Position numbers and translations under genes: made by a program
Notes under the pieces: model-generated
Database searches by the model: none
Seen by the model: only the letters and a program-made list of their open reading frames with translations
What the model was told of the DNA's origin: nothing
Assembly (NCBI GenBank): GCA_028720145.1
Contig: JAQYLJ010000027.1
Span: 1-45,006 of the forward strand
DNA: 45,006 bases
Direction: 5' to 3'
DNA from: Clostridia bacterium
GTDB taxonomy: Bacteria > Bacillota > Clostridia > Oscillospirales > CAG-272
Shown: positions 607 through 17,014 of the stretch, in pieces
How the letters are laid out: every line of letters begins with the position of its first letter
How positions within the stretch are numbered: position 1 is the stretch's first letter

Positions 607-669
607 GGTATCATAAAACACAAAAGTATCAACTTAGCTATTTACACGCGGCGAACATTCATTTATATT
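607..669 (+). promoter_or_regulatory. Operator-like motif copy 1 plus promoter (TTTACA-17-TATATT)
   Basis: GGTATCATAAAACACAAAAGTATCAACTTAGCTATTTACA at 607-646; -10 TATATT at 664-669; same architecture as 5572 and 12215. Confidence 0.65.
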
Positions 670-850
670 TACGATGTAAGTAATCCGTAAACGCAGACGG
701 GCAGGGAGAACGATAAGAGCGTTTATGATAAAACGTGGATTCGTGAGATCTTTCAGCGACGTCGATACCAACAAAGAACATCATGCACCTACGAGCGGGG
801 ATTACAGACTGAGTGCCACAAGCACAACGGAACACGACCTTGTGAGACAT
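659..850 (-). pseudogene. Possible IS110-family transposase N-terminal fragment
   Basis: Minus-strand ORF contains MMFFVGIDVAERSHE, resembling the IS110 DEDD N-terminal motif (FVGIDVAK..H). The ORF stops after about 40 further residues. Confidence 0.4.
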
Positions 851-1065
851 AAGAAGATAACGGCAGAGACTGAATCGACATCCGGCTTATTCATGTAGAC
901 CCGCTGTACAAGAGGCTCTCACGCTTTTGGTGAGCAGAATCACTACAAGGAGAACGCCGAGAAACCTCTGTCTGCGAGAATATGATCTCATAAAGGCTGT
1001 GGGATAAGCCATTAAAAGTAACCAAGTTGCTTGGAATTTTATGATACAAGGAGGAAGGAAATACG

Positions 1066-1830
1066 ATGAAAAGATTTGAAGGCAAGGTAGTTATCGTGAC
1101 GGGCGCAGGCGGCGGTATCGGATCGGACACGGCGATCTCGTTCGCAGCCGAGGGCGCAAAGGTCGCTGTAGTCGATTTCAACGGCGAAACCGCGAACGAA
1201 ACGGTAAAGAAAATCACTGAAAACGGCGGTGAAGCAAAGGCTTACGTTTGCGACGTGACCGATTTTCACGCGGTCGAGAAGTGTGTAAACGATATAGTCG
1301 CAGACTTCGATGGTGTGGACGTGTTGGCGAATATTGCCGGCGGAAGCGCGAGAAAAGACCGAGCACTCTCGTACGAGCAGTCGCCGGAGGTTTTCGACAG
1401 AATTATCAAGGTCAATCTTTACGGCAGTTATTATTTCGCTCGCCAGTGCGCGAGAGTGATGATAGAAAAAGGCAAGGGCGGTAAGATCGTCAATACGACT
1501 TCGGTCGTGGGACTGAACGGACACGTCATGCACACCGAATACGGAGCGTCGAAGGGCGGGGTGCTGAGTATGACCAAGTCTATGGCGAAAGAACTCGGGA
1601 AGTTCGGGGTGAACGTAAATGCGGTTTGCCCGGGCATGATTCCCACGGCAAGCGCGACCGGCGGCGATCTTTCATACACGAACTATTTGCGCATGACTCC
1701 ATCGCCGCACGATATCACGGCGGCGGTCATGTTCCTTGCTTCGGAGGATGCGCGTTTTATCACAGGACACAATCTTGTCGTCGACGGTGGCAGATGCCTC
1801 GCGACCCGCGGTACGGAGCCGAAGGACTGA
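1066..1830 (+). CDS. SDR family NAD(P)-dependent oxidoreductase
   Basis: GxxxGIG cofactor motif (TGAGGGIG), YGASKGG active site, C-terminal FITGHNLVVDGG; RBS aaggaggaagg upstream. Confidence 0.92.
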   Translation: MKRFEGKVVIVTGAGGGIGSDTAISFAAEGAKVAVVDFNGETANETVKKITENGGEAKAYVCDVTDFHAVEKCVNDIVADFDGVDVLANIAGGSARKDRALSYEQSPEVFDRIIKVNLYGSYYFARQCARVMIEKGKGGKIVNTTSVVGLNGHVMHTEYGASKGGVLSMTKSMAKELGKFGVNVNAVCPGMIPTASATGGDLSYTNYLRMTPSPHDITAAVMFLASEDARFITGHNLVVDGGRCLATRGTEPKD

Positions 1831-2190
1831 TTGATAACGAATCGGCAAACGGAACCGTTGCGGCTTCCTCGAGTTACGGCGTAAACGACAGTGCGGTTTC
1901 GGCTCCGTCGGAGTCCGTCCGCGCGACGGCGCGGCAAAGATTTCCGAGCGCAAGACCGAGAAAAACGTGCGACAGACAATTGCACAGTGATCATCGTGCT
2001 CGCGAGCCTGTTCGTAACGACCGTACAATAACGGCGATTATGCGGGTATCTTTCCCACACCGGCAGCCGTTTGTCTTTCAACCAGACTCGGAGCCAAATC
2101 AAACTCGTACATCAGGTGGAGACAATCTGCAATTTATCAATGCGGAGCCCGGAAATATAGAGCCTTTTGAAGTCGCGCTCGCAGTCTTCC

Positions 2191-2236
2191 AAACGTGCAA
2201 AAAGCCACCATTGCGGTGGCTTTTTGCACGTTTTTG
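2191..2236. terminator. Bidirectional terminator hairpin
   Basis: 19-bp perfect stem aaacgtgcaaaaagccacc (2191-2209) / ggtggctttttgcacgttt (2215-2233), between convergent SDR and M20 genes. Confidence 0.85.
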
Positions 2237-2241
2237 AGTGT

Positions 2242-3588
2242 TTACAGATTGACGGTGACGGAACCGTCTTCCCCCCAGATGAGCAGGTCATGCTCCGCCA
2301 TGTACTTGTCCCAATCGGCAAAGTAGGCTTCCTTGTTCGGGTAGAGCGGCTCGTAGGTGTCCACCACCTTGCGCGCGAGGCGGGCATCGTCCGAGAGGAG
2401 CGCGGCGGCGAGGGAAAGCTGCCCCTCGGCGGAGACGACGCAGGCGTTCTCGACGTCCGCGATGCGGAAGTCGTTGCCGTGGCTGGCACCCGCGGCGCCG
2501 CTGATGTAGGGGTGCAGGACGGGCATCAGGCAGGAGAGGTTCCCCATATCGGTCGAACCGCCGCCGAAGTTATGCGTGATATTCAGGTTCTCCCGCCCGA
2601 CCAGTTCCGCCATGACGTCGGTCGCGATCTCCTTCAGGCACGGGGCGTTATGCAGAGGGCAGGCGCCCGGATGGTCTGTAACCGTGACCGTCGCACCCAT
2701 GGCGAGCGCACCGGATGCGATCGCGCGGTTGACCTTGCGGTTCGTGCGGGCGATGGAGGGGAGGCTGTTCCCGCGCACGAGCGTGGAGAGCGCCGCCTCT
2801 GCCGGAATCACGCTGACCGAATCCCCGCCGTTTGTCATAATGGGATGGACGCGCACATTTTCCTTGTCCGGGAACGTCTCGCGCAGGGCGTTGATAGCGT
2901 TCAGGGTGAGGGTCGCGGCATACAGTGCGTTGATGCCCGCCTGCGGGAAGCTACCGGCGTGCGCCGCCTTCCCGTGAAAAACAATATCCTTGGAGATATT
3001 GCCGTTGCACCCGTCGTGGATATCCAGTTTGCTGTGCGGATTGGTGCCGGTGTGGAACATATAGGCGAGGTCTACGCCGTCAAAGTAGCCGCGGAAGAGA
3101 AACTCGTCTTTCCCACCGCAGTAGCGGATGGTACCCGCGCGGCGCAGCTCGTCCCGGAAGTCCAGTTGGATCTCCTCCTCGGCGGGTACCGCCGCGAGAC
3201 GAATTGAGCCCGAAAGCCCGTCGAGCGCACCCGGCTCCCGGAGCGCGAGCGCGATCCCTACCATGGCGGCGCACTGCGCATGATGCCCGCAGGCGTGTGC
3301 ACAGCCGTCCACCGCCGCGAAATGGTGCGGCATGGCGATGGCATCGAGCTCACAGATGATGAGGAGCCTCGGTCCCGGTCTGCCGGTATCGATGTCGGTA
3401 TAGAAACCGGGGATATTCCCGGCTTTCGTCAGCGTGTAGCCCGCGTCCTCGAAGATCTTCTCGAGGTAGGCACCGGTCTGCCATTCCTTGAACCCTGTCT
3501 CCGGGTGCTCCCAGATGTATTTCTCCGCCGCGACGATCGCTTCTCTGTGTCGGGCGACGAGAGCCGCGTATTTGTCGGTATGAAACAT
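2242..3588 (-). CDS. M20 family metallo-peptidase/amidohydrolase
   Basis: 448 aa; DGCAHACGHHAQCAAMVG metal-binding motif and overall M20/AbgB-like layout. Confidence 0.88.
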   Translation of the reverse strand: MFHTDKYAALVARHREAIVAAEKYIWEHPETGFKEWQTGAYLEKIFEDAGYTLTKAGNIPGFYTDIDTGRPGPRLLIICELDAIAMPHHFAAVDGCAHACGHHAQCAAMVGIALALREPGALDGLSGSIRLAAVPAEEEIQLDFRDELRRAGTIRYCGGKDEFLFRGYFDGVDLAYMFHTGTNPHSKLDIHDGCNGNISKDIVFHGKAAHAGSFPQAGINALYAATLTLNAINALRETFPDKENVRVHPIMTNGGDSVSVIPAEAALSTLVRGNSLPSIARTNRKVNRAIASGALAMGATVTVTDHPGACPLHNAPCLKEIATDVMAELVGRENLNITHNFGGGSTDMGNLSCLMPVLHPYISGAAGASHGNDFRIADVENACVVSAEGQLSLAAALLSDDARLARKVVDTYEPLYPNKEAYFADWDKYMAEHDLLIWGEDGSVTVNL

Positions 3589-3669
3589 GGCGATGCTCCT
3601 TTATTATTCCGTTTTGCTCCCCACCCGGAGAAGAGGCCTCCCCGGGCATGAGGGCTTCAATTCACCGCC

Positions 3670-3698
3670 ATTCTATCCGAAACGGCACACAAAGTCAA
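3670..3698 (-). promoter_or_regulatory. Sigma70-type promoter for the M20 gene
   Basis: Minus strand TTGACT-17 bp-TAGAAT. Confidence 0.6.
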
Positions 3699-3801
3699 CT
3701 GTTTTGCACAAAAATCGCAATAAAAATATTGTTTCTTTTGTCCAAAATGATACTTTTATCCGTTCTGATAACAAACCCAAAAGAAGGAAGCATCGCACAC
3801 C

Positions 3802-3831
3802 TTGCCAACAATCGTGCGCACATGTTACAAT
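3802..3831 (+). promoter_or_regulatory. Putative promoter for the ABC ATPase operon
   Basis: TTGCCA-18 bp-TACAAT. Confidence 0.45.
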
Positions 3832-3916
3832 ACAAAGGAAAGAAATTGCGCGCTTTTTCGACAAAGGTGTCGGAGGAGGGACGCACAAATCCCGATGCAG
3901 GGCAGGGAGGATCACA

Positions 3917-4633
3917 ATGCCGGATATTAAGGTAAAGAATCTGACAGTGACCTATATTGATAAGAAAAAGAACGAGACGGTTGCCGTCCGGGGGCTCTCG
4001 GCACGGTTTGACGCCGGCACGCTGAACGTCGTCATGGGCTTTTCCGGGTGCGGGAAGACCACGCTGCTCAAAGCGATTGCCGGTTTCTTCGCCTTTGACG
4101 GCTATATTTACTTTGACGGTAAGGACGCCGATACCATTCCGACGCGGAAGCGAAACCTTGCCTATGTCTCACAGGATTATGTCCTGTATCCGTCACTGAC
4201 GGTTTTTGATAACATCGCCTTTCCCTTAAAAACCGCGCGCCTGAAGCGCGACGAGGTGACGGAACGGGTCAAGGCGATCGCCGAGACCTTCGGGCTCACC
4301 GACTGCCTCACGCGCCTGCCGAAACATCTCTCGGGCGGTCAGCAGCAACGTGTGGCGATCGCCCGCGCCATGGTGAAGCACCCGAATCTCATTCTCATGG
4401 ACGAGCCGCTCTCCAATGTGGACACCGAGAGCCGCGAAATGCTCCGCCGTTATATCCGCCATGTGCAGACGTCAGAGGGGGTCACGGTCATCTATGTCAC
4501 GCACGACTATCGCGAGGCGCTCGAACTCGCCGACCGGATCTACGTCATGGACGAGGGGCAACTGGTCTTTGAGGGGACGCCGGACGAGGTTCGTATGTCC
4601 GAGAACGAGACGGTCGCTCTGCTCCGTCAGTAA
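3917..4633 (+). CDS. ABC transporter ATP-binding protein
   Basis: Walker A GFSGCGKTT, signature LSGGQQQRVAIARA, Walker B LILMDEPLS, H-loop VTHD. ATG at 3917 after agggagg RBS; the track ORF at 3587 is over-extended. Confidence 0.93.
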   Translation: MPDIKVKNLTVTYIDKKKNETVAVRGLSARFDAGTLNVVMGFSGCGKTTLLKAIAGFFAFDGYIYFDGKDADTIPTRKRNLAYVSQDYVLYPSLTVFDNIAFPLKTARLKRDEVTERVKAIAETFGLTDCLTRLPKHLSGGQQQRVAIARAMVKHPNLILMDEPLSNVDTESREMLRRYIRHVQTSEGVTVIYVTHDYREALELADRIYVMDEGQLVFEGTPDEVRMSENETVALLRQ

Positions 4634-4645
4634 GGAGGAAACCGC

Positions 4646-5503
4646 ATGAAAGTCAAACGCGCCGCCACCGATTTTACCGCCGATGCTCTGCCCGCGACAA
4701 GACCTGCTGTCTTTTGGGACTGCTGGCGCGTCCGGCACCGTCTGCTTTTCGCGCTCGGCGGCATTCTGCTCCTCTTCCTCCTTCCGCTCCTCATCTCGCA
4801 TCTCTCGCGTGACGTCCTGTGTGCGTCCGTCGCTGTCTCCGATGCCGGAGACGAGGCGGCTCGCGCCGCCGCCGTCGCCAATCTGCGCTTTTGGTTTCGC
4901 CTCATCGACATTCCGTGCTGGCTGATCCTTTCCGTGGGGCTCGCCGGTACGGTGCGCGTCGTGCGGCAGCTGGTCTTCGGCGAGGGCGTGTTCCTCCGCG
5001 AGGACTTCTTCACCGGCGTGCGGCAGAACGGTGGGGCGTATGCGGGGGTATTCCTCTTCACGTCTCTGTGGCTCCTGCTCACCGAATACGCCGGCACGCT
5101 CCGAGGGAACACCGGGGGACTTGCCTATCTGCCGATCATCAGTGGGATTCTGCTCCTTTTGCCCATCGGGCTTCTGCTCCTTGCGGAAGTGGCAGTGTAC
5201 CGCGCGACCGTCGGAGGGCTCCTCAAGAATGCCATGATCCTGTATTTCCGCACCGTGCCGACGACGCTTGCGGCGACGGCGGCGCTGTTGCTCCCGCTCC
5301 TCGTCTGTTTCGTTCTGGACATCGCGGGCGCCATGCTCTTCGTCAAATATGTGTTTCTGGTTGCGTATGCCGTCCTGCTTCTGCCCTCGACGGTCATGGG
5401 GGAATTCTTATACTGCGCCTACGTCTTTGATAAGCATATCAACCGCAGGTATCACCCGGAAGAAGTAGACAAAGGTATTCATCGACGTGAACAATCCAAA
5501 TAA
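4646..5503 (+). CDS. Multi-pass membrane protein of unknown function
   Basis: 285 aa, about 6 hydrophobic segments, RBS aaggagga, immediately downstream of the ATPase. Confidence 0.75.
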   Translation: MKVKRAATDFTADALPATRPAVFWDCWRVRHRLLFALGGILLLFLLPLLISHLSRDVLCASVAVSDAGDEAARAAAVANLRFWFRLIDIPCWLILSVGLAGTVRVVRQLVFGEGVFLREDFFTGVRQNGGAYAGVFLFTSLWLLLTEYAGTLRGNTGGLAYLPIISGILLLLPIGLLLLAEVAVYRATVGGLLKNAMILYFRTVPTTLAATAALLLPLLVCFVLDIAGAMLFVKYVFLVAYAVLLLPSTVMGEFLYCAYVFDKHINRRYHPEEVDKGIHRREQSK

Positions 5504-5516
5504 CCTGTTTTTGTGA

Positions 5517-5548
5517 GAAACCGACAACAAAATTGTCGGTTTCTTTGC
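5517..5548 (+). terminator. Rho-independent terminator
   Basis: gaaaccgaca-acaaaat-tgtcggtttc followed by a T-rich tract. Confidence 0.75.
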
Positions 5549-5571
5549 CTTTTTGGCGATTTTTTGAAATG

Positions 5572-5634
5572 AGTATCAAATCTGACAAAAATATCATTAT
5601 CGACATTTACAAAAAAAGAGTTCGCCAATATCAT
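5572..5634 (+). promoter_or_regulatory. Operator-like motif copy 2 plus promoter (TTTACA-17-TATCAT)
   Basis: AGTATCAAATCTGACAAAAATATCATTATCGACATTTACA at 5572-5611; 34/40 identical to the copy at 12215. Confidence 0.75.
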
Positions 5635-5668
5635 AATTTGTGAAGAATACCTAAAACGGAGGACGGCC

Positions 5669-6577
5669 GTGAAACTGACGTTTGACGGAGGCCGTTCGCA
5701 GGGTGACCCGTACGTCATCCGGCACGGCGATACGTATTATATGTACGCGACGGGCGCAAAAGGGGTGCAACTCTATACCGCCCGGGACAAATACCATTGG
5801 CACTACGCCGGTATCTGCTACTCGCTCGAGGGCGAGAAAGAATACTGGGCGCCCGCGGTGCTTTTCCATGAGGGTCGCTTCTGGCTCTATTATTCGTCCA
5901 TGGGCGAGTGGGAGACGGACACGCACCGCCAGCGTATGTGCGTCGCGGTCAGCGACCGTCCGGACGGAAGGTTCGCTTTCGTTGGGGAACTGATCGCGCC
6001 GTTTTCCATCGACGCGCATGTGGTCGAGTCGGGGGGAGACCTCTATATGTACTACTCCACGAACGATTACGAAGCGGAGCGGGCAGGGACGCTGATCGTC
6101 GTCGACAAAATGCTCTCGCCAACCAAAATGTGCGGACATCCGCAGGTGGTGGTGCGCGCGACGCTGGACGAAGAGATCTTCATGCGCGACCGTTTCAGGA
6201 AAGGGCAGCATTGGCACACCCTCGAGGGCGCGTTCTACTTCCGTGTCGGTGACGATCATTTCCTCACCTATTCCGGGAACTGCTATCAGAACGAAACCTA
6301 TTATATCGGGTACGCGGTGGCACACGGGCACACCGACGACCTGACGGAACTGCACTTCCATAAGTACCCGGACGACAACACCTATTGCCCGCTCGTCGCG
6401 AAGAACGACGTCGAAGAGGGGACGGGGCACAACAGCGTGCTTGCCGAGGGTGGGTACCTCTACCTCTTCTACCACGGCAGAGATTACGGCACCCGCGGCA
6501 CCGCCGCGGACGTGCGGACGGCGCGCATCTGCGAGATTGCGGAGCGCGACGGGAAACTCGAAGTCGTCAGTCGCTGA
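5669..6577 (+). CDS. Glycoside hydrolase family 43-like protein
   Basis: Five-bladed-propeller style repeats: GDPYVIRHGDTYYMYAT, EYWAPAVLFHEGRFWLYYS, DLYMYYSTND, TGHNSVLAEGGYLYLFYHG. GTG start after ggagg. Confidence 0.85.
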   Translation: MKLTFDGGRSQGDPYVIRHGDTYYMYATGAKGVQLYTARDKYHWHYAGICYSLEGEKEYWAPAVLFHEGRFWLYYSSMGEWETDTHRQRMCVAVSDRPDGRFAFVGELIAPFSIDAHVVESGGDLYMYYSTNDYEAERAGTLIVVDKMLSPTKMCGHPQVVVRATLDEEIFMRDRFRKGQHWHTLEGAFYFRVGDDHFLTYSGNCYQNETYYIGYAVAHGHTDDLTELHFHKYPDDNTYCPLVAKNDVEEGTGHNSVLAEGGYLYLFYHGRDYGTRGTAADVRTARICEIAERDGKLEVVSR

Positions 6578-6592
6578 AAAATAAAAAAATCG

Positions 6593-6636
6593 GAGGGGGA
6601 TCCCCCTCCCGCCGGGCAGGTTCCCTGCCCGGCGGG
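6593..6636 (+). repeat. Two adjacent strong palindromes in the intergenic region
   Basis: ggagggggatccccctcc (6593-6610) and cccgccgggcag-gttcc-ctgcccggcggg (6608-6636); no T-tract. Confidence 0.7.
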
Positions 6637-6710
6637 AACAAGAAGACAACAAAAGGAACTGTTAACCGAGGCGGGTCGCCCCCGCAATAACCGAAAAAGG
6701 AGATCAGCCT

Positions 6711-8945
6711 ATGAAAGCAAAATGGTGTATGACATTTCTTCTGGCGCTCGTGACCCTGCTGTCCGTTGCGCTCTTGACCGCCTGTGGCTCAGAAAAGGAG
6801 ATGAAAAAAACCTTCATGAAGATGGAAATTGATTCGTCGGGGGTCGGACAACTTACGGACGGGGATCTTTTCGACCCGAAAACGCTCCGTGTCACCATGA
6901 CCGCCGACCGCGGTGCTGATGGTGTTCTCGACCTTGCTAATGCCACCGTCACGGTGGACGGTGCCGCCTATACCGGCTCACCGATCGAGGTGCATGAACC
7001 GTCCTGCACGGTGAAGATCGTATATGAACAGGGAGAGGGAAAGCCGACGCTTACCGGCGAGGTGACGCTGGACGTCGCGAAAAAGACGACTCCCACGCCG
7101 GAGCCCACACCGACAGGAAAAGCCAAGGTCATCATCATGGCAGGGCAGAGCAACATGGTCGGGCACAGCATGGTGGACAGTCTGACGCCGGAACAGTTGG
7201 CGAAGTATCAGGCGGGTTTCAAAAATGTGCTGATCTTCAATTCCTGCAATCCGTATAACCCCAAAACCGACAAACGGAATTTGACGACGAACTTCATTCC
7301 CGTCAAGACGGGCATGGGCAGGATCCCGGACGATACGACCAACTGGCCGAACTGGTGCTTCGGTCCCGAGCTCGGGCTCGCCGAGTATCTCTCGGAGACC
7401 TATCCCGACGAGACATTCTACATCATCAAGGACGCGACGGGCGGCACGACCCTGCACGACAAGTGGTATTCGCCCTCCTCGCTCGCCTATCTCGGGAAGG
7501 AAACCCTCGCAGAAAACAGCCTGTACACCCATCTGCTCACCCGCGTGGACGAAGGCATGGGGCTGCTTGAGGAAAATCAGATCGACGCGGAGATCGTCGC
7601 CCTCCTCTGGATGCAGGGCGAAAGTGATACCCACCAATATACCACTGATTACGCGGTTCTCTGGTCGAACTTTATCGGAGACCTCACGACAGAGCTGGAG
7701 AGCCGGGGCTATGTGACGGAGAACGGGCTCGCTACGATCGACGGCGGCATCACCGAATACTGGGCAAACTACGAAATACTCAACGCCGTCAAGGAAATTT
7801 GGGCGGCAGAACACTCCAAAGGGTACTATGTGGATGTCCTCGGCGCGGGTCTGACCCGTAAGCCGAGCGACCCCGCCCATCTGGATTCTCCCTCGATGCT
7901 CCGCCTCGGGCGGCTCTTCGGAGAGAAACTCTCGCTCGCGATCGCCGACCTTGGGAATGCGGCGACCGTGACACCCGTCACGCTCCGCGGTACGGGTACG
8001 GCGGACGATCCGTATCTCATCGGGTCTTATGCCGAATGGTTGCGCCTGACGCATACGGCATTTGTCGACACAGACGCGCTCACGGGCAAGTATATCAAAC
8101 TGACATCCGATATCGGGAGCGCCAATATGCCGGTGCGCGCATCGCTCGGTGTCACCTCCGTGAGACCCTTTGCCGGTACGATCGACGGCGACGGACACAC
8201 CATCTATGTGAACCTCCGCAACCGACAGTATAAGACAGAGGGGCGCGCCATGGGGCTCATCGGCTACGCGAACGGCGCGACGCTCGAGAATCTCACGGTC
8301 GCGGGCGATGTGACCCTGACCGTCGGTAACTTCTACGCCGCCGGTTTCATCGGGATGGTGCAGTGGGCGAACGGCGCCGTGACCACCATCAGGAATTGTG
8401 TCAATATGGCGACGATTAACGTGACCGGCGCGTCGAACGCCGCGGGCTTCGTCGGGCGGATGCTCGGCAACCTCACGATTGTGAACTCGGAGAACAAAGG
8501 TAATGTGACAACAGCCGGTAACTATGCCGCAGGCATTGTCGGCTACATTAACAACTCGACTGTTGCGGGTGCCGGTGCGCCCTCCCTCACCGTCATCGGT
8601 ACGGTGAACTCGGGGAACATCACGGGTCAGACGGGCGTCGGCGGTATCGTCGGTCTGTTCATGACCGGGGCTTCCGGCGGGAAGCACATGCTGACGGATG
8701 TCTCGAACACGGGGGCCCTCACGGGCGAGGAGCAGGTTGGCGGCATCATCGGTGTCGTGACGAGCCAAGCGGCGAGCGGCTTCGATATCACGGTCATTTA
8801 CCTCGAGGCGGGATTGAAAGACGCCGAAGGAGCGGACATCGTGATCGGCTCAGACGGCAACAAGCAGACGACCGCCGTCACGAAGCGACTCTCCGGGGGC
8901 GATCCCGACGGAGGAGATTTCGGAGGATTCATTCCGTTCGTATGA
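6711..8945 (+). CDS. Lipoprotein: SASA/sialate O-acetylesterase-type SGNH hydrolase domain plus C-terminal GLUG repeats
   Basis: Lipobox LLTACGS; SGNH blocks IIMAGQSNMVGHS, LLWMQGESDTH, DPAHLD; Pro/Thr linker PTPEPTPTG; GLUG-like GGIVG/AGFVG repeats. Confidence 0.88.
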   Translation: MKAKWCMTFLLALVTLLSVALLTACGSEKEMKKTFMKMEIDSSGVGQLTDGDLFDPKTLRVTMTADRGADGVLDLANATVTVDGAAYTGSPIEVHEPSCTVKIVYEQGEGKPTLTGEVTLDVAKKTTPTPEPTPTGKAKVIIMAGQSNMVGHSMVDSLTPEQLAKYQAGFKNVLIFNSCNPYNPKTDKRNLTTNFIPVKTGMGRIPDDTTNWPNWCFGPELGLAEYLSETYPDETFYIIKDATGGTTLHDKWYSPSSLAYLGKETLAENSLYTHLLTRVDEGMGLLEENQIDAEIVALLWMQGESDTHQYTTDYAVLWSNFIGDLTTELESRGYVTENGLATIDGGITEYWANYEILNAVKEIWAAEHSKGYYVDVLGAGLTRKPSDPAHLDSPSMLRLGRLFGEKLSLAIADLGNAATVTPVTLRGTGTADDPYLIGSYAEWLRLTHTAFVDTDALTGKYIKLTSDIGSANMPVRASLGVTSVRPFAGTIDGDGHTIYVNLRNRQYKTEGRAMGLIGYANGATLENLTVAGDVTLTVGNFYAAGFIGMVQWANGAVTTIRNCVNMATINVTGASNAAGFVGRMLGNLTIVNSENKGNVTTAGNYAAGIVGYINNSTVAGAGAPSLTVIGTVNSGNITGQTGVGGIVGLFMTGASGGKHMLTDVSNTGALTGEEQVGGIIGVVTSQAASGFDITVIYLEAGLKDAEGADIVIGSDGNKQTTAVTKRLSGGDPDGGDFGGFIPFV

Positions 8946-8976
8946 GAACGGTGGATTATTGGGAAAGGAGAGAATC

Positions 8977-9129
8977 ATGAACGATCGGAAACCTATCTGG
9001 ACACCGCCGGTGACGGAGATTATTTACCTCGGCGCGGACGATGTGATCCGCACCTCCGACACCCACCGCCAAGAAGAAGGTGTCGGCGACAAAACGACCT
9101 GGAATGACCTGTTCGGCGACGGTCAATGA
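8977..9129 (+). CDS. Uncharacterised small protein (50 aa)
   Basis: MNDRKPIWTPPVTEIIYLGADDVIRTSDTHRQEEGVGDKTTWNDLFGDGQ*; RBS gggaaaggag upstream of ATG; sits between two genes with matching orientation. Absent from the ORF track because of its length. Confidence 0.75.
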   Translation: MNDRKPIWTPPVTEIIYLGADDVIRTSDTHRQEEGVGDKTTWNDLFGDGQ

Positions 9130-9169
9130 TCGCCGGGAACTATCAGAACGAAACGAAAGGGTTACTAAC

Positions 9170-11137
9170 ATGAAAAAGATTACTTCGCTTATCCTCTGTA
9201 TCGTTTTGACCGTGGTGGCACTGACCGCGCTCTCGGTGGCTGTGTTCGCCGATGAGGGGGAAACGCCTGCGGTCAGCGATATCACGCTCGCCGGGTATCA
9301 GAACAAGAACGGCGGCTTCGATATCCGTATCGTCGGTAAGATCGCGAATGAGACGAACTACCGCGAGGTCGGTTTCGTCTTCTCGAACGGCACGACCTCA
9401 AAGGAGTGCGCCGCGAAATACATGTTCAAGACGTTGCTCGCGTCCGATGGGGAAAACACCTACGAGGCGCTGACAGCCGGTGAGGGCGAATACCTCTATG
9501 CCTATATCATTGAGGGCATTGAAGAAACCGCCGCTCTGACGCTCAGCGTCAAGCCATATGCCGTGAATAACGACAACGAGAAGATTTACGGCGAGGAAAA
9601 AACGCTCGTCAAGGAAGCGGGCGGACAGTTTGCGCAGGAGACGGTACATACCCACGCGCCGATTCACCACGAGGCGACCGTCGCCACCGCGGCAAGCTAC
9701 GCAACGGCATGGAACACGGAATACTGGTCCTGTGAAGGCTGCTCCAAGCTGTTTAGTGACGCCGCTTGCACGACCGTGGTCGAGGCAGATGCGGTCATGG
9801 CACCGGCGCAGAAAGACAATGCGGACTTTGTCAACAGCGAAACGAATCCTTATCTGCTCGCGAACGTAGCAGACTGGCAAGCCTATGCGGAAGCCGTCAA
9901 CGGCGGTGACAACATGAGCAGCAAATATGTGAAACTGACTGCCGACATCGGCACCGAAGAAGCACCTGTGACGACGGCAATCGGTACATCCTCTAATAAC
10001 CCGTATTGCGGCAATTTTGACGGCAACGGCAAGGAGGTATATGTGAACTTAAGCAGCACTTCTGCCATTGGTGTGTTTGCTTATTATAGGGGCGGTAGCA
10101 TCAGCAATCTGACCGTTCGCGGAACTGTCGCGTATACAAATACAACAACAACTGATCATTCCACGGTTGGTGGTGTGGTAGGCATGATTCTGCAGAATGC
10201 TACGGCAACCATCACAAACTGCAAAAACTATGCGAACATTCAGGCACCCGATAACTGCAGTGCGGGGGGAATCGTCGGGAAGAACAACGGCGGCGTTACC
10301 ATTTCCGGGTGCACGAATTACGGGAATGTCAATGGCGGAAAACTTGGCAAAAACCGCAGTATTGGTGGTATTATCGGGTGGATCAATCAGGTTGATACCA
10401 GAATTGAGAATTGCATAAACAACGGTGCGGTCAGCAGTACAGGCGATACGGCTACGACTGCCGGTACGGGCGGTATTGTTGGTATATCGGGAATGAGTCG
10501 TTCCGTGATTGATGGCTGTATCAATAACGGCACGGTCAGCGGTTATCGCTTTATCGGCGGTATCATCGGGTATGTCGTCCAGAATGCTACCATAACGAAT
10601 GTCAGCAATACTGCTGCCATTAGCGGTACGCGTGATATCGGCGGTATCATCGGCGGCACAGACAATACAAAAACGTCATCCACTTTTAACGAACTGTATG
10701 TGACAGGCGCGACAAACAGCGGCGCCGTCACCGGTACCGGTGACTTCATCGGCGGTATTGTCGGATATATCAACAGTACGGGCAACGTGCTGACCGATTG
10801 CACCAACACCGGCAACATCACCGGTGCAAAGAGCGTCGGCGGTATCATCGGACTGGTGAACGTGAGCAAGACCGCGACGGTGGACAACGCGACCGTGCGT
10901 GACTGCACCATTTCCGGCTCGCAGTCCGTCGGCGGCTGGATCGGCAGAATCGTTTCCAAGGCGACCGCGACCTACAAGAATTATACGGCACCGACCGGTG
11001 TTGCCTATGTGCTGGGCGGCACGGAGACGGAAGCCGTCGCAGGATTTGACACTGCGGGGCGTACGGACGGCGCAACTGCCGCACCCGGTGAGGCGTTCGG
11101 TACCTGCCCCGGCACGGCGACCAACGTCACCGAATAA
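9170..11137 (+). CDS. Secreted GLUG-repeat protein
   Basis: Signal peptide MKKITSLILCIVLTVVALTALSVAVFA; many GGIIGyv..a.itn..N.g.isG repeats. ATG at 9170 with RBS; the track start at 9080 is over-extended. Confidence 0.85.
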   Translation: MKKITSLILCIVLTVVALTALSVAVFADEGETPAVSDITLAGYQNKNGGFDIRIVGKIANETNYREVGFVFSNGTTSKECAAKYMFKTLLASDGENTYEALTAGEGEYLYAYIIEGIEETAALTLSVKPYAVNNDNEKIYGEEKTLVKEAGGQFAQETVHTHAPIHHEATVATAASYATAWNTEYWSCEGCSKLFSDAACTTVVEADAVMAPAQKDNADFVNSETNPYLLANVADWQAYAEAVNGGDNMSSKYVKLTADIGTEEAPVTTAIGTSSNNPYCGNFDGNGKEVYVNLSSTSAIGVFAYYRGGSISNLTVRGTVAYTNTTTTDHSTVGGVVGMILQNATATITNCKNYANIQAPDNCSAGGIVGKNNGGVTISGCTNYGNVNGGKLGKNRSIGGIIGWINQVDTRIENCINNGAVSSTGDTATTAGTGGIVGISGMSRSVIDGCINNGTVSGYRFIGGIIGYVVQNATITNVSNTAAISGTRDIGGIIGGTDNTKTSSTFNELYVTGATNSGAVTGTGDFIGGIVGYINSTGNVLTDCTNTGNITGAKSVGGIIGLVNVSKTATVDNATVRDCTISGSQSVGGWIGRIVSKATATYKNYTAPTGVAYVLGGTETEAVAGFDTAGRTDGATAAPGEAFGTCPGTATNVTE

Positions 11138-11156
11138 AAACAAAAAATCAACAACG

Positions 11157-11193
11157 CCCCCACACGGATTTGATCCGCGTGGGGGAATTTTTC
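11157..11193 (+). terminator. Rho-independent terminator
   Basis: cccccacacggat-ttg-atccgcgtggggg then aattttt. Confidence 0.8.
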
Positions 11194-11203
11194 CGGGGCA
11201 TGA

Positions 11204-11238
11204 CAAAGAGAGCCACCGCGCCGCGGTGGCTCTCTTTG
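11204..11238. terminator. Near-perfect palindrome, likely terminator of the convergent AraC gene
   Basis: caaagagagccaccgcg / cgcggtggctctctttg. Confidence 0.6.
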
Positions 11239-11332
11239 ATTGGTTTTTGGGGGGTCGCTGTTTGGCGGCGCTGTCGTACTGCCTCGTCGGGTCGGGGGCG
11301 TGCGGTGCTGTGACCGGGCGCGCCCCGGCGCG

Positions 11333-12136
11333 TCAGCGGTGGTTGCTGAAATATTCTTTCGCGTACTCGGTCGGGGAGACGCCCGTTTCGAGCTTAAACA
11401 TCTTGGAGAACGTGTAGACCGAGGAGTATCCCGTCATCTCGGCAATTCTCCCAATCGAGGCATCGTCGCCGATGAGCAGTTCCTTCGCTTTTTTAATACG
11501 GACGGTACGCAGGTACTTGATAGGTGACTCCCCGTAGACACGGGTGAACACCTTGCGGAAATATACCGTCGAGATACCCGCCATGGCGGCGAGGCTCTCG
11601 TTCGTGATATGTTTATCGAAATAGCGTGTGCGGATGTAGTCAATTACGGGTTCGAGCATATGCCGGTAGGAGCTCGGCAGATAAGTTTCTTTATGCTCCG
11701 TCACCGTGGCTTTATCGAGGATCTTATAGAACATGGACTTGCATTTGAGCAAATAATTGTCCTTTTTGAGATCCCACAGGTTCGCTACGTTCAGGAGCAT
11801 CGTGGCAATCTCCCGGCTGACTGCGTCGGAGAGCGCAAACTCATAAAAGTCGAACGGCTCGCCTTCCAGCTCCCCCTCGAACTCGATCGTGATGCACTTC
11901 CCCTGCTGCCCGAGCTGCCACTGATAGCGAGCATCCTTTGAGATGAGGAGCAGATGGTGCGGGTCGGTGACATAGGTCTTGCCGCCCGCGTAATAGTAGG
12001 TAAGTCCCTCGACCTTCAGCGTCAGGGCATAAGTCGAGCGGTCGTTGCGCGTGATGCGCTTCGTCTCATATCGGTAGATGGTGTTGACGGCAAGGATCCG
12101 GTGGAGGATCAGCTTTGAAATCGTTTTAGCATCCAT
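11333..12136 (-). CDS. AraC family transcriptional regulator
   Basis: C-terminal double HTH: ITNESLAAMAGISTVYFRKVFTRVYGESPIKYLRTVRIKKAKELL...IGRIAEMTGYSSVYTFSKMFKLETGVSPTEYAK. Start MDAKTISK at 12136. Confidence 0.93.
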   Translation of the reverse strand: MDAKTISKLILHRILAVNTIYRYETKRITRNDRSTYALTLKVEGLTYYYAGGKTYVTDPHHLLLISKDARYQWQLGQQGKCITIEFEGELEGEPFDFYEFALSDAVSREIATMLLNVANLWDLKKDNYLLKCKSMFYKILDKATVTEHKETYLPSSYRHMLEPVIDYIRTRYFDKHITNESLAAMAGISTVYFRKVFTRVYGESPIKYLRTVRIKKAKELLIGDDASIGRIAEMTGYSSVYTFSKMFKLETGVSPTEYAKEYFSNHR

Positions 12137-12145
12137 AGTAAGGCT

Positions 12146-12174
12146 ATTATAAAGCATATTGTACAAAAAAACAA
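12146..12174 (-). promoter_or_regulatory. Promoter of the AraC gene (TTGTTT-17-TATAAT)
   Basis: Minus-strand boxes at 12169-12174 and 12146-12151. Confidence 0.55.
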
Positions 12175-12190
12175 CCGCGTTTTTGATTTT

Positions 12191-12207
12191 TGCTAAATAT
12201 TTTAGCA
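12191..12207. promoter_or_regulatory. Perfect palindrome TGCTAAATATTTTAGCA in the divergent promoter region
   Basis: 7-bp arms around TAT, 7 nt upstream of operator copy 3. Confidence 0.6.
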
Positions 12208-12214
12208 CGGGTTC

Positions 12215-12278
12215 AGTATCAAAACGGACAAAAATATCACAATGGGCATTTACACCTTTTCGGGCATCCTCCTATAAT
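12215..12278 (+). promoter_or_regulatory. Operator-like motif copy 3 plus promoter (TTTACA-18-TATAAT)
   Basis: AGTATCAAAACGGACAAAAATATCACAATGGGCATTTACA at 12215-12254; TATAAT at 12273-12278. Confidence 0.78.
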
Positions 12279-12333: not shown

Positions 12334-13383
12334 ATGGCGGAAAACGGAAAACTTCGCATCGGCATCTTCGGTATCGGGCACAATCATGCGGCGGCTGCCA
12401 TCGCCGCACTGAAAGCGCGTGAGGACGTGGAGATCGTCGGACTATGTGAGCCGGACGACGCGATGCGGGAAAAACGACTGAAGGAGAACCCCGCCGTCTA
12501 TGGTGACATTCCCGTGATGAGCGAGGAGCGCCTCCTCGCCTCGGGTATCCGCGCCGCAATGGTCGAAGCCTCTGTCCCCGACCTTGTACCGACTGCGCTC
12601 CGCTGTGCGGAAGCCGGACTTCATATCCACATGGATAAACCCGCCGGTACCGACCTTTCGCTCTATCGCACGTTCCTGGATGTCGCTCGGGAGAAGCATC
12701 TTGTCTTTCAGACCGGGTACATGTACCGCTACAACGCCGGTGTGCGCTACGTACTGGAGCGCGTCCGCAACGGGGCGCTCGGGCGTATCTACAATATCAC
12801 GGCGGAGATGTGTACCAAGCATCCGGGCTGGTTCGAGCGGCAACTCATCGGTTACGGCGTCAAGGCGCCGGTCATGTACATCTTCGGCGGGCATCTCATC
12901 GACCTCTGTATGCAGGTCAAAGGAGTCCCCGCGGATCTGACCGCTTTCCACACCGAGTCGGGCGACGGAGACATCCACTTTGAAGATACCTCTCTCGCGG
13001 TTCTGACTTATCCCGACGGGATCGCGACGGTGCGGGTCTCCTCCTGCGAGGTCAACGGTTGGGGTCTGCGCGAGTTTACGGTCTTTGGAGAGCAGGGCAC
13101 GATCACGGTGAGCCCGCTGGAAGCCCCAATGCGCGTCCGCGAGACGACGCTCGCAGAGCAGGAGCCGTGGAAAGACCGCTACCACACGGTAGACGTCCCC
13201 GAAGTCGGGCGGTACGACGTCATGATGCACGATTTCGTGTACATGGTGGAGGGGAAGATCCCCTACGACGTCGATTTCACCCATGAATACCTGCTACAGA
13301 AACTGACCCTCGAGGCATGCGGTTACACGGCGGAGGAAATGAATGCCAACGCTTCCATCACTGCCCGTGCGTCAGATGATTGA
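12334..13383 (+). CDS. Gfo/Idh/MocA family oxidoreductase
   Basis: N-terminal RIGIFGIGHNHAAAAIAAL Rossmann; HIHMDKPAGTD (EKP-like motif). Confidence 0.9.
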   Translation: MAENGKLRIGIFGIGHNHAAAAIAALKAREDVEIVGLCEPDDAMREKRLKENPAVYGDIPVMSEERLLASGIRAAMVEASVPDLVPTALRCAEAGLHIHMDKPAGTDLSLYRTFLDVAREKHLVFQTGYMYRYNAGVRYVLERVRNGALGRIYNITAEMCTKHPGWFERQLIGYGVKAPVMYIFGGHLIDLCMQVKGVPADLTAFHTESGDGDIHFEDTSLAVLTYPDGIATVRVSSCEVNGWGLREFTVFGEQGTITVSPLEAPMRVRETTLAEQEPWKDRYHTVDVPEVGRYDVMMHDFVYMVEGKIPYDVDFTHEYLLQKLTLEACGYTAEEMNANASITARASDD

Positions 13384-13423: not shown

Positions 13424-14575
13424 TTGACGGAAAAGTCGTCATTGAAACCGGTGCCGGCGGCAGACACCCTGCCACGCGCGGTGACGGGCCGAGGGACTGA
13501 CACGGTGACGCATTCCATCCAAACGACACAAGCGGTCACACCGCAGGCAGGTCAGCCGGACAGCACCGCCGGCACCACCCAAACGGGGGCAGAATCCGCC
13601 GGGGGCGGGAATCCTAAAGCCACGCTGACGGCAGTCGGGCTCGGTCTCATCGTCATGCTCCTCTGGGGGTCGCTGTTCCCGTTCGTCAAATACGGGTACA
13701 AGGTGTTCGAGATCGACACGTCGTTCTACCCGAACCTGATCCTCTTCGCCGGGGTGCGGTTCCTTGTGAGCGGCGCGCTCCTCTCGGCGTTCTGCCTCGC
13801 GACGCGGCGGACGTACCTCCTCCGACAACCGAAGAAGTGGCTCCCGACCGCCCTCGTCGCCCTGTTTGCCGTGGTACTTCATTATGCCTGCACCTATATC
13901 AGCCTCGGGCAGATCGACAGCTCCAAGACGGCGCTCCTCAAGCAGTCGGGCGTGCTCGTGTTCGTGTGCTTCTCGTTCCTGTTCTTCCGTGACGACCGAT
14001 TGACACCGGGGAAGATCATCGGCGCCGTGTGCGGGGTTGCCTCGGTGCTGGTCATCAATCTGGATTCCTTTAAGATCACGTTCGGTCTCGGGACGGCGCT
14101 CGTCATCGGCGCGAGCTTCTGCACTGTGATCTCCAACATCATCTTTAAGAAGAGTTTTCACGATGTCCCCGCCGTGACCGTCACGGGGTACTCGCAGCTC
14201 ATGGGCGGTCTGTTCCTGACCGTACTCGGGCTTGCCCTCGGCGGGCGAATCCCCTCCTTCGGTTGGCGCGCTGCGCTCGTCATGCTGTACATCATCGTCG
14301 CGACGGTGGTCAGCTACGGGCTGTGGTACTACGTCGTACAGAAATACGCGCTCTCAAAGCTCTTTATCATCAAGATGGCGGAGCCGCTGTTCGCGGCGCT
14401 CGTCAGCGTGCTGTTGCCGCTGGGGACGCATCTGACATGGCAGCACGCCGCCGCCTTTGCCCTCGTTGCCGTCGCCGTGTGCGTGAGCAACATACAATTC
14501 CCGAAACGAAGCAAAATCAAGAAAACCGTGTCCGCGGCAAGTAACGCCACGGAAGAAGAAGGAGAAACGAAATGA
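13424..14575 (+). CDS. EamA/DMT-family transporter
   Basis: About 10 TM segments; MLLWGSLFPFVKYGYKVFEIDTSFYPNLILFAGVRFLVSGALL; true start uncertain (TTG 13424 or GTG 13505). Confidence 0.82.
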   Translation: MTEKSSLKPVPAADTLPRAVTGRGTDTVTHSIQTTQAVTPQAGQPDSTAGTTQTGAESAGGGNPKATLTAVGLGLIVMLLWGSLFPFVKYGYKVFEIDTSFYPNLILFAGVRFLVSGALLSAFCLATRRTYLLRQPKKWLPTALVALFAVVLHYACTYISLGQIDSSKTALLKQSGVLVFVCFSFLFFRDDRLTPGKIIGAVCGVASVLVINLDSFKITFGLGTALVIGASFCTVISNIIFKKSFHDVPAVTVTGYSQLMGGLFLTVLGLALGGRIPSFGWRAALVMLYIIVATVVSYGLWYYVVQKYALSKLFIIKMAEPLFAALVSVLLPLGTHLTWQHAAAFALVAVAVCVSNIQFPKRSKIKKTVSAASNATEEEGETK

Positions 14576-15561
14576 AAGCCATGCTGATCGATGCCGACAA
14601 ACAGTTTGTCTGGAGTGACGTCGAGGAGCCCGTCCTTACGGACGAGGGCGTCATCGTCGAGATCTATGCCGCCGCGCTGAACCGCGCCGACCTCTTACAG
14701 CGGCAGGGGACCTATCCGTCGCCCGCCGGCTGGCCGCAGTGGCCTGGACTTGAGCTCGCGGGAAGAATCGTCGCGATGGGCAAGACCGCGGAGCGCGCGA
14801 GCGGGTATCACATCGGGGACAGCGTCTGCGCCCTCGTGGGCGGTGGCGCGTATGCGGAGCGCATCTCCCTGCCGTATCAGCTGCTCCTGCCGGTGCCGAA
14901 GGGAATGAGCATGGAGGAAGCCTCTACGCTCCCCGAAGCCTATACGACCAGTTACCTGAACCTCTTCGTCGAGGGGCACCTCACCGCCGGTCAGGTGCTG
15001 TACGTTGCCGCCGGGGCGAGCGGGCTCGCCAGCGCGGCAATCCCGATGGGGAAGCTCAACGGGGCTTATGTCGTGACGAGCGTACAGACGCGCGCCGCGG
15101 CAGAGAAAATCAAAAACCTCGGCGCCGATGAGATCATCATCCAGGAAGAAGAGAGTATCCCCGACGCGTTCGCGAGACTGGAGCGCGAGGGGCACCCGGT
15201 AAACGTCTGCATGGACTGCCTCGCCGGCGGAGATCTCGGTGCCGCGATGCCTTTCATGGCAAACGGCGGCTACTGGGTCATCATCTCGACGCTCGCGGGC
15301 ATCACGACGGAGGTGAAGCTCCGCCCACTCCTGACAAAGGGTTTGCACCTGGTGGGCAGTATGCTCCGCCGCCGCTCGAACGAAGAAAAACACGCACTGC
15401 TCACGGCTCTGCGCGACAATATGTGGCACTGGTTCGAGGACGGGACGCTGAAGCCGTCCGTCTATCGCATACTGGATATTTCCGAAGTGGACGAAGCGCA
15501 CGGGATCCTCGAACGGTTTGAAAACACCGGCAAGGTCGTCCTGCGTGTGAAACAATCGTAA
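14572..15561 (+). CDS. Zinc-type alcohol dehydrogenase-like / NAD(P)H:quinone oxidoreductase
   Basis: NRADLLQRQGTYPSPAGWPQWPGLELAGRIV; PIG3/QOR-like. ATGA overlap with the preceding gene. Confidence 0.88.
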   Translation: MKAMLIDADKQFVWSDVEEPVLTDEGVIVEIYAAALNRADLLQRQGTYPSPAGWPQWPGLELAGRIVAMGKTAERASGYHIGDSVCALVGGGAYAERISLPYQLLLPVPKGMSMEEASTLPEAYTTSYLNLFVEGHLTAGQVLYVAAGASGLASAAIPMGKLNGAYVVTSVQTRAAAEKIKNLGADEIIIQEEESIPDAFARLEREGHPVNVCMDCLAGGDLGAAMPFMANGGYWVIISTLAGITTEVKLRPLLTKGLHLVGSMLRRRSNEEKHALLTALRDNMWHWFEDGTLKPSVYRILDISEVDEAHGILERFENTGKVVLRVKQS

Positions 15562-15571
15562 GGGAGGCGCT

Positions 15572-17014
15572 ATGAAAAAACACCTGTTATGGACAATGCT
15601 CCTGCTATGTCTCGTCCTGCTCCTCGCGGGGTGCGGTGCGAAATACAGCTGGGACGATGAACGCCTGAACTACAATATCACCGGGGAGACGGTGGAAAAC
15701 GGGACGCTCTATGTGACGCGCAAAGGCGAAAAGGTCAAGCGCGCCGCCGAGGGCGATATCCTCTACGTCAATCTTGTCCCCGCTACGGGCTATGGGCGCG
15801 CGAGCATCACGGTCAACGGTGAGGCGATCGAGGGGTCGCAATTCACGATGCCTGCAGGCGACGTGAAAGTGGCGGCGACCGTCCGCCCCATCGTCAGTCA
15901 GATCACCGTGGACACCGCGCTCGTCGGCGGTACCGTCACGGCGGATAAGACAGAAGCCATGTACGGCGAAACCGTTACATTGACCGTCACGCCCGAGGCC
16001 GATTACACGCTCATCGAGCGCAGTCTGACCGTGAACGGGGCGGAGATCTATCGAGGACAGGCGGCGGAGGCGACGCAGGTCACGTTCCGTATGCCGCCGC
16101 ATGACGTCCGCATCACCGCCCGCTTCCGGGATACGACCCTGCGGATCACCACGATGGATGAATATCGCGCGTTTGCCGCCCTCGTCAACGGCGGGACGGA
16201 TTTTCGCGGTCGCCGCGTCATCATCGACGCGGATATCGGCTCCCCCGAGGCGCCGGTCGACGTCATGATCGGGAATGCATCGGATAAGGCGTTTGCCGGT
16301 ACCATCGAAGGTAACGGTCATACCGTGTATCTCAATCTGACCGGCACAAAGGGCATCGGTCTCATCGGTTATTCAAACGGCGCTACGGTGAGAGACCTCA
16401 CGGTCGCAGGGCAGGTCAAGTTGACCGCAGGCAATATGTATGCGGGCGGCTTTGTCGGTCTTGTCCAATGGGCGAGCGGCAGGGTCACGACGCTCGAGAG
16501 ATGCGTCAACGAAGCGACGGTCAATGTGACGGATTCGTCCAATGCCGGTGGCTTTGTCGGGCGGACGCTCGGTAATCTCACGGTCACGGGATCGGAAAAC
16601 AAAGGCAATGTGACGACCGCCGGCAATTATGCCGCAGGCATTGTCGGTTACATCAACAATTCCGATGCCTTGGGGGCGGGCGCTCCCGCCATCACCATCA
16701 CGGATACGGTGAATACAGGCAACATCACCGCCGTGAAGGGTGTCGGAGGCATCGTCGGGCTGTTCCATAAAGGGGCGGCAGGTGCCGTGCACGTCCTCAC
16801 GAACGTCTCGAACACCGGCACCCTCACGGGGGATGAACAGGTCGGTGGCATCGTCGCCGTCATCACGAGCCAGGCGACAGGCGGCTTTGACATTACGATC
16901 ACCTACCGCGAGGCGGGACTGAAAGACGAAAACGGGGAAGACCTCGTCGTGGGCGCTGACAATAACCGGAAAACAACGGTCATCACACACATCACCGATG
17001 ACGGAAATGTATGA
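15572..17014 (+). CDS. Lipoprotein with C-terminal GLUG repeats (paralogue of the 6711 C-terminus)
   Basis: Lipobox LLLAGCGAKY; FTMPAGDVKV and FRMPPHDVRI repeats; GLUG segment closely matching the 6711 protein. Confidence 0.85.
   Translation: MKKHLLWTMLLLCLVLLLAGCGAKYSWDDERLNYNITGETVENGTLYVTRKGEKVKRAAEGDILYVNLVPATGYGRASITVNGEAIEGSQFTMPAGDVKVAATVRPIVSQITVDTALVGGTVTADKTEAMYGETVTLTVTPEADYTLIERSLTVNGAEIYRGQAAEATQVTFRMPPHDVRITARFRDTTLRITTMDEYRAFAALVNGGTDFRGRRVIIDADIGSPEAPVDVMIGNASDKAFAGTIEGNGHTVYLNLTGTKGIGLIGYSNGATVRDLTVAGQVKLTAGNMYAGGFVGLVQWASGRVTTLERCVNEATVNVTDSSNAGGFVGRTLGNLTVTGSENKGNVTTAGNYAAGIVGYINNSDALGAGAPAITITDTVNTGNITAVKGVGGIVGLFHKGAAGAVHVLTNVSNTGTLTGDEQVGGIVAVITSQATGGFDITITYREAGLKDENGEDLVVGADNNRKTTVITHITDDGNV

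Follow-up and report, generated by a model that had tools for sequence, protein, structure and literature searches.

At the araBAD promoter AraC is placed next to the -35 box at I1-I2, and its half-sites are about 21 bp apart. Operator formulas are also available for three further members of the AraC family. The XylS operator at Pm reads TGCA-N6-GGNTA-N6-TGCA-N6-GGNTA and the MekR operator CACC-N5-CTTCAA-N6-CACC-N5-CTTCAA (PMC4514859). MtlR of Pseudomonas fluorescens binds as a dimer at PmtlE to AGTGC-N5-AGTAT-N7-AGTGC-N5-AGGAT, a site with a strong upstream and a weak downstream unit which lies upstream of the -35 box (PMC4514859). Here we analyze a stretch of 45,006 nucleotides (the window) from a Clostridia bacterium (Oscillospirales, CAG-272; contig JAQYLJ010000027.1 of assembly GCA_028720145.1) in which a 40-bp sequence recurs at three promoters. 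With a probability of roughly 0.88 we propose that this motif is the predicted operator of an AraC-family regulator whose gene lies at 11336-12136 on the minus strand and which would activate from a class II position.

Like the XylS and MekR operators, the window sites consist of two consecutive two-box monomer sites arranged as a direct repeat that adjoins the -35 box on its upstream side. As in the MtlR operator, the upstream unit is the better one: in the window it is closer to the consensus than the downstream unit. The period, however, is different. Counted from the published formulas it is 21 bp for XylS and MekR and 22 bp for MtlR (PMC4514859), whereas the window sites repeat after 18 bp and those of relatives after 18 or 19 bp, so that the half-site period of about 21-22 bp, typical albeit not strictly defining, is not found here. 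Moreover, the sequence is unrelated to the XylS and MekR operators, and boxes, phylum and pathway differ from those of MtlR.

Tandem sites at three promoters

A sequence-only reading of the window had described three 40-bp copies on the plus strand, each ending in a TTTACA -35 box with a -10 box 17-18 bp further on. Positions and strand proved exact, and a recount by eye gave the same identities (34/40 between copies 2 and 3, 28/40 between copies 1 and 3). The sites and the regulator gene are:

607-646 (+), site 1, operator/promoter; -35 TTTACA at 641-646, -10 TATATT at 664-669
5572-5611 (+), site 2, operator/promoter; -35 TTTACA at 5606-5611, -10 TATCAT at 5629-5634
12215-12254 (+), site 3, operator/promoter; -35 TTTACA at 12249-12254, -10 TATAAT at 12273-12278
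11336-12136 (-), AraC-family regulator, divergent from site 3

The spacer between the -35 and -10 boxes is 17 bp at sites 1 and 2 and 18 bp at site 3. Promoter scoring returns consensus matches at all three, and these are among the top-scoring promoter-like sites in the first 13 kb. Each site is made of two RTATCA-N5-GAYAAA units with a period of 18 bp and abuts the TTTACA box. The 18-bp direct repeat, which had also been described, is borne out by the self-match of the RTATCA repeat over 16 sites, which is highest at offset 18 (0.52 vs about 0.3). Tandem half-sites, a proximal half-site abutting or overlapping the -35 box, a sigma-70 promoter and a spacer of 17-18 bp are thus all present, as expected for class II activation.

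A degenerate 40-mer finds three matches in the window at 0-1 mismatches, against a mean of 0.00 in 100 dinucleotide shuffles. The 1.9-Mb genome was searched by patterns and by a sequence-only model of 16 sites. Because this model includes the window's own sites, an independent weight matrix was trained solely on 13 sites from other genomes. With the 16-site model six sites in the genome fall below E = 1e-3, four of them in the window (sites 1-3 and a fourth site described below) and the others at C37:8385 and C5:32180. Sites 1-3 are the top three of the six, and the next match after the six has E = 0.09. All six lie at regulator-linked or pathway genes; a motif that hits random intergenic regions, which had been named as an outcome speaking against the idea, did not turn up. 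With the independent matrix sites 1-3 rank first in the window (56, 53 and 49 bits); the two units of the fourth site reach 26 and 22 bits, and the maximum in the reversed-window control is 13.4 bits. Chance similarity is ruled out by the zero matches in the shuffles and by these scores, and the recurrence of the sequence at three promoters is genuine.

The motif is also conserved in relatives, another point on which the sequence-only reading could have failed. With up to 3 mismatches the full pattern occurs in 17 places in 12 of 298 genomes of the family, that is in 11 genomes besides its own, and the reversed control gave 0. A scan of 397 genomes of the order (up to 2 mismatches; control 0) added ten further sites in eight genomes of the families f16, f17, f19 and f20. 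Most sites in relatives adjoin an AraC homologue, nearly always divergent as in the window, and hardly any site has neither an AraC homologue nor the same enzymes beside it. Two weak-looking matches, one in G102 (L043, 3 mismatches) and one in G259 (L048), have no AraC homologue nearby and were excluded from the model.

The divergent AraC regulator

The AraC gene described as lying divergently next to copy 3 is indeed present. Its start is likely the ATG at 12136 and not the GTG at 12208, since the longer open reading frame shows homology only from about residue 24-31 onwards. The protein has a C-terminal double helix-turn-helix (HTH) domain (PF12833 / PF00165; HTH_18 6.4e-22, HTH_AraC 4.7e-15), which is matched in 13 of 13 subfamily members, and the profile matches the HTH chains of the solved AraC, SoxS, MarA and Rob structures. 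About 160 residues precede the HTH domain and are partly conserved; AraC_binding_2 gives weak matches in two of the 13 members. In contrast to AraC at araBAD, the window regulator has no match to the arabinose-binding domain. The curated NCBIfam models of the AraC family (Btr, AryK, PocR, AraC, RhaS, MelR and others) all stay far below their cut-offs, the best with 71.6 vs 900 bits; the HTH similarity is shared, and none of these named equivalogs applies. A scan of named genomes for close homologues returned distant AraC proteins only.

The link between regulator and motif was examined in a blind test, for which protein score was the sole criterion in choosing AraC homologues. The 450 bp upstream of each were searched for RTATCA-N5-GAYAAA followed after 1-2 bases by RTATCA, allowing up to 3 mismatches. 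A divergent motif is found in 31 of 33 close homologues (E up to about 1e-39), mostly at 0-1 mismatches, as opposed to 0 of 20 distant homologues (E of 1e-34 or above). In one of the two exceptions (L092 in genome G162) the site lies just downstream of a co-directional AraC gene; in the other (L110) it is one mismatch over the limit. With a slightly harsher table (31/34 vs 0/20) Fisher's test gives p < 1e-11, a nominal value since the homologues are related. The table does not include C52, a paralogue in the own genome. The recognition helix agrees with this distribution of sites: S-T-V-Y-F-R-K is nearly fixed in the site-bearing subfamily (T in 30/36, V in 34/36), and outgroup AraC proteins mostly have E or other residues at those positions. 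In C52, the one subfamily paralogue without a recognisable site, both helices are changed (STSYFRK, VYYFD).

The geometry is constant as well. In the 34 AraC-linked sites eight bases separate the second RTATCA from ATTTAC or a variant of it, and 31 of the sites have a TATACT/TATAAT-like -10 box at 17-18 bp spacing. The unit period is 18 bp in 13 subfamily members and 19 bp in 22. The two operator forms cluster unevenly on the regulator tree (L067-L140): the period label changes five times, compared to about eleven times when shuffled. A single AraC residue which would explain the choice between 18 and 19 bp was looked for in L067-L140 and not found.

The sites, their conservation, their linkage to the AraC subfamily and its genes, and their geometry were all established computationally. 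The class II interpretation of the sequence-only reading is supported by site geometry, by conservation and by the blind test, and we suggest that activation proceeds as follows. A unit comprises a box A (TATCA) and a box B (GAYA) ten bases apart, which would fit one AraC-type monomer with its two HTH motifs. Each 18-bp unit would bind one monomer, the two HTH motifs contacting TATCA and GAYA, 10 bp apart. Two monomers would then bind in tandem, with the promoter-proximal unit running into the non-consensus -35 box TTTACA. As this unit reaches the -35 box, the effector-bound regulator probably recruits RNA polymerase from a class II position. Physical binding, activation rather than repression, the effector and the chemistry of the pathway are in this scheme predictions.

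Genes behind the predicted operator

In relatives the operator is followed by a core operon which is strongly conserved, with variable subsets of the genes: a DHquinase_I-like protein, an SDR, a zinc-type MDR dehydrogenase, Gfo/Idh, an amidohydrolase, an NAD-epimerase-like protein, a PIG3-like oxidoreductase and an EamA transporter. Four other families of the order likewise have this operon behind the motif. Thus the motif co-occurs across genomes with a homologous regulator and a shared gene set, as expected for the regulon of one AraC subfamily. The genes behind sites 1-3 in the window are:

1066-1830 (+), SDR dehydrogenase, beginning about 390 nt after site 1; 48% identity to the core-operon SDR2 in G257
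5669-6577 (+), GH43 glycosidase, first gene after site 2
6711-8945 (+), SASA-family carbohydrate esterase
9080-11137 (+), GLUG-motif protein; weak similarity (28% identity) to a G292 protein under a site
12334-13383 (+), Gfo/Idh/MocA oxidoreductase (GIGHNH), with an identity of about 44% to the Gfo/Idh which follows this operator in other genera
13424-14575 (+), EamA (DMT) transporter, conserved-operon member; 41-48% identity to operon homologues
14572-15561 (+), PIG3-like quinone oxidoreductase, 58-72% identity to operon members in relatives

Since the SDR, Gfo/Idh, PIG3-like and EamA proteins of the window are homologues of operon genes, sites 1 and 3 serve core genes which are scattered here. 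The effector-bound regulator would turn on the SDR gene, the GH43/SASA/GLUG operon and the Gfo/Idh-EamA-PIG3 operon. The leader of the SDR gene (670-1065) has no Rfam match and no obvious long open reading frame in the three forward frames; a structured RNA in this leader was considered and dropped for lack of an Rfam match.

A fourth site, which the sequence-only reading had missed, appears as two overlapping minus-strand matches in the pattern search of the genome once mismatches are allowed:

3730-3771 (-), fourth site, TTATCA...GTATCA...GAAACA; made up of two good 18-bp units followed by a degenerate one
3670-3698 (-), M20 promoter, TTGACT-17-TAGAAT, downstream of the fourth site
2242-3588 (-), M20-type amidohydrolase gene (TIGR01891), served by the fourth site

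Its sequence, running from 3771 down to 3730, is TTATCAGAACGGATAAAAGTATCATTTTGGACAAAAGAAACA, which as DNA divides into TTATCAGAACGGATAAAA-GTATCATTTTGGACAAAA-GAAACA. Because its last units begin 37-55 bp before the -35 box of the M20 promoter, the geometry is unlike that of sites 1-3 and is not a class II spacing; at this promoter the units further upstream could act from a class I position.

The GH43/SASA/GLUG genes and the M20 gene are not part of the core and are apparently lineage-specific recruits. A SASA-like esterase in G182 also sits behind a site, as does the GLUG-like protein of G292. Recruitment of extracellular polysaccharide genes may therefore have happened more than once. The window encodes a second SASA-like esterase (15572-17014), 63% identical over 266 residues to the one at 6711-8945; both esterases lie near a GH43 gene, and the GLUG protein (9080-11137) is about 32-33% identical to both.

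The regulated core would be an oxidoreductive catabolic pathway conserved across the order, with its genes scattered in this genome and enzymes for extracellular polysaccharides added. Among the core enzymes scanned the broad PIG3 subfamily alone reached its family-model cut-off, and therefore we do not name a substrate. The DHquinase_I-like protein which leads many of the operons (L085:10251-11093 and homologues) scores 37 bits vs the AroD cut-off of 139, and this family possibly catalyses a different reaction from AroD. Quinate/shikimate-like, cyclitol and 3-keto-glycoside pathways were considered, and none was adopted.

The remaining two sites of the genome also lie at genes of this kind. 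At C37 (L079:8384-9901) the operator and promoter (2 mismatches) precede a decayed DHquinase_I-like gene, its reading frame broken, and then an MDR dehydrogenase gene with an open frame; this locus is a remnant of the core operon with the switch still in place. At C5 (L080:9326-11339) a paralogous AraC gene with its own site of 19-bp period stands divergent to Gfo/Idh and epimerase genes, and with this locus the genome has the switch in a second copy.

Alternatives and meaning of the proposed regulon

The sites might form one regulon whose main regulator is a paralogous AraC protein (C5:31338 or C52:44960), or several such proteins acting jointly. Both paralogues share 36-37% identity with the window AraC, and the C5 protein has a related site of its own before Gfo/Idh. 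Yet the period of that site is 19 bp and not 18 bp as in the four window sites, no recognisable site was found for C52 and its recognition helices are altered, and the divergent neighbour of site 3 is the window AraC gene, an arrangement shared with the relatives. We consider such a substitution unlikely. Somewhat less likely still is a regulator that represses by blocking the -35 box and is released by an effector. The proximal unit touches the -35 box, which makes occlusion geometrically possible, but the -35 boxes are non-consensus (TTTACA, not TTGACA) and the constant spacing N8-ATTTAC is activator-like. Moreover XylS, MekR and MtlR, which have comparable tandem sites next to the -35 box, are activators (PMC4514859). 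That the sites are no protein sites at all and instead stem from a recently duplicated promoter segment or the end of a mobile element is highly improbable, even though a 12-kb stretch of one contig contains three near-copies. The similarity does not reach beyond the 39-bp site and the promoter hexamers, the variable positions differ freely, and the same bases are kept in genomes of many genera and families; this conservation of the pattern across families rules out a duplicated segment.

Several observations weigh against our reading of the motif as the class II operator of the window AraC protein. Identity of this protein to its relatives is 33-41%, and no recognised effector domain, including AraC_binding_2, was matched in it. 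Two further subfamily paralogues, C5 and C52, are encoded in the same genome, so cross-talk is possible. Site 1 is about 390 nt ahead of the SDR start. Not all window targets are conserved as targets in relatives: M20 and GH43 homologues in other genomes have no operator within about 1.5 kb, and the case for these two genes as targets therefore comes from their own genome. Targets that are conserved in relatives are the SDR, Gfo/Idh, PIG3-like and EamA (DMT) genes, whose homologues belong to the core operon behind the motif.

The period of 18 or 19 bp corresponds to about 1.7-1.8 helical turns, not 2, and the two monomers would therefore sit on different faces of the DNA. We give even odds to the wider proposal that this is an undescribed AraC subfamily of uncultured Clostridia which, with a compact 18/19-bp period and monomers on different DNA faces, controls an oxidoreductive pathway (a DHquinase_I-like protein and several dehydrogenases) for which polysaccharide-degrading genes were recruited in this lineage. 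In the open-access papers searched we found nothing relevant on this operon or regulon, which is weak evidence of novelty.

An AraC-family regulon is a known kind of gene switch and in this sense ordinary. For lineages represented chiefly by metagenomes, a regulator, a predicted operator and target genes are assigned here using nothing but sequence and a blind test. The operator marks out a conserved, unnamed operon in several families of the order, and the biochemistry of this operon becomes a testable question, namely which compound induces it. The regulon also shows rewiring, as operon genes are spread to separate promoters, polysaccharide enzymes are recruited and at C37 the operator stands before a decayed gene. 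Finally, the compact repeat period probes how flexible the geometry of AraC-type activators is.

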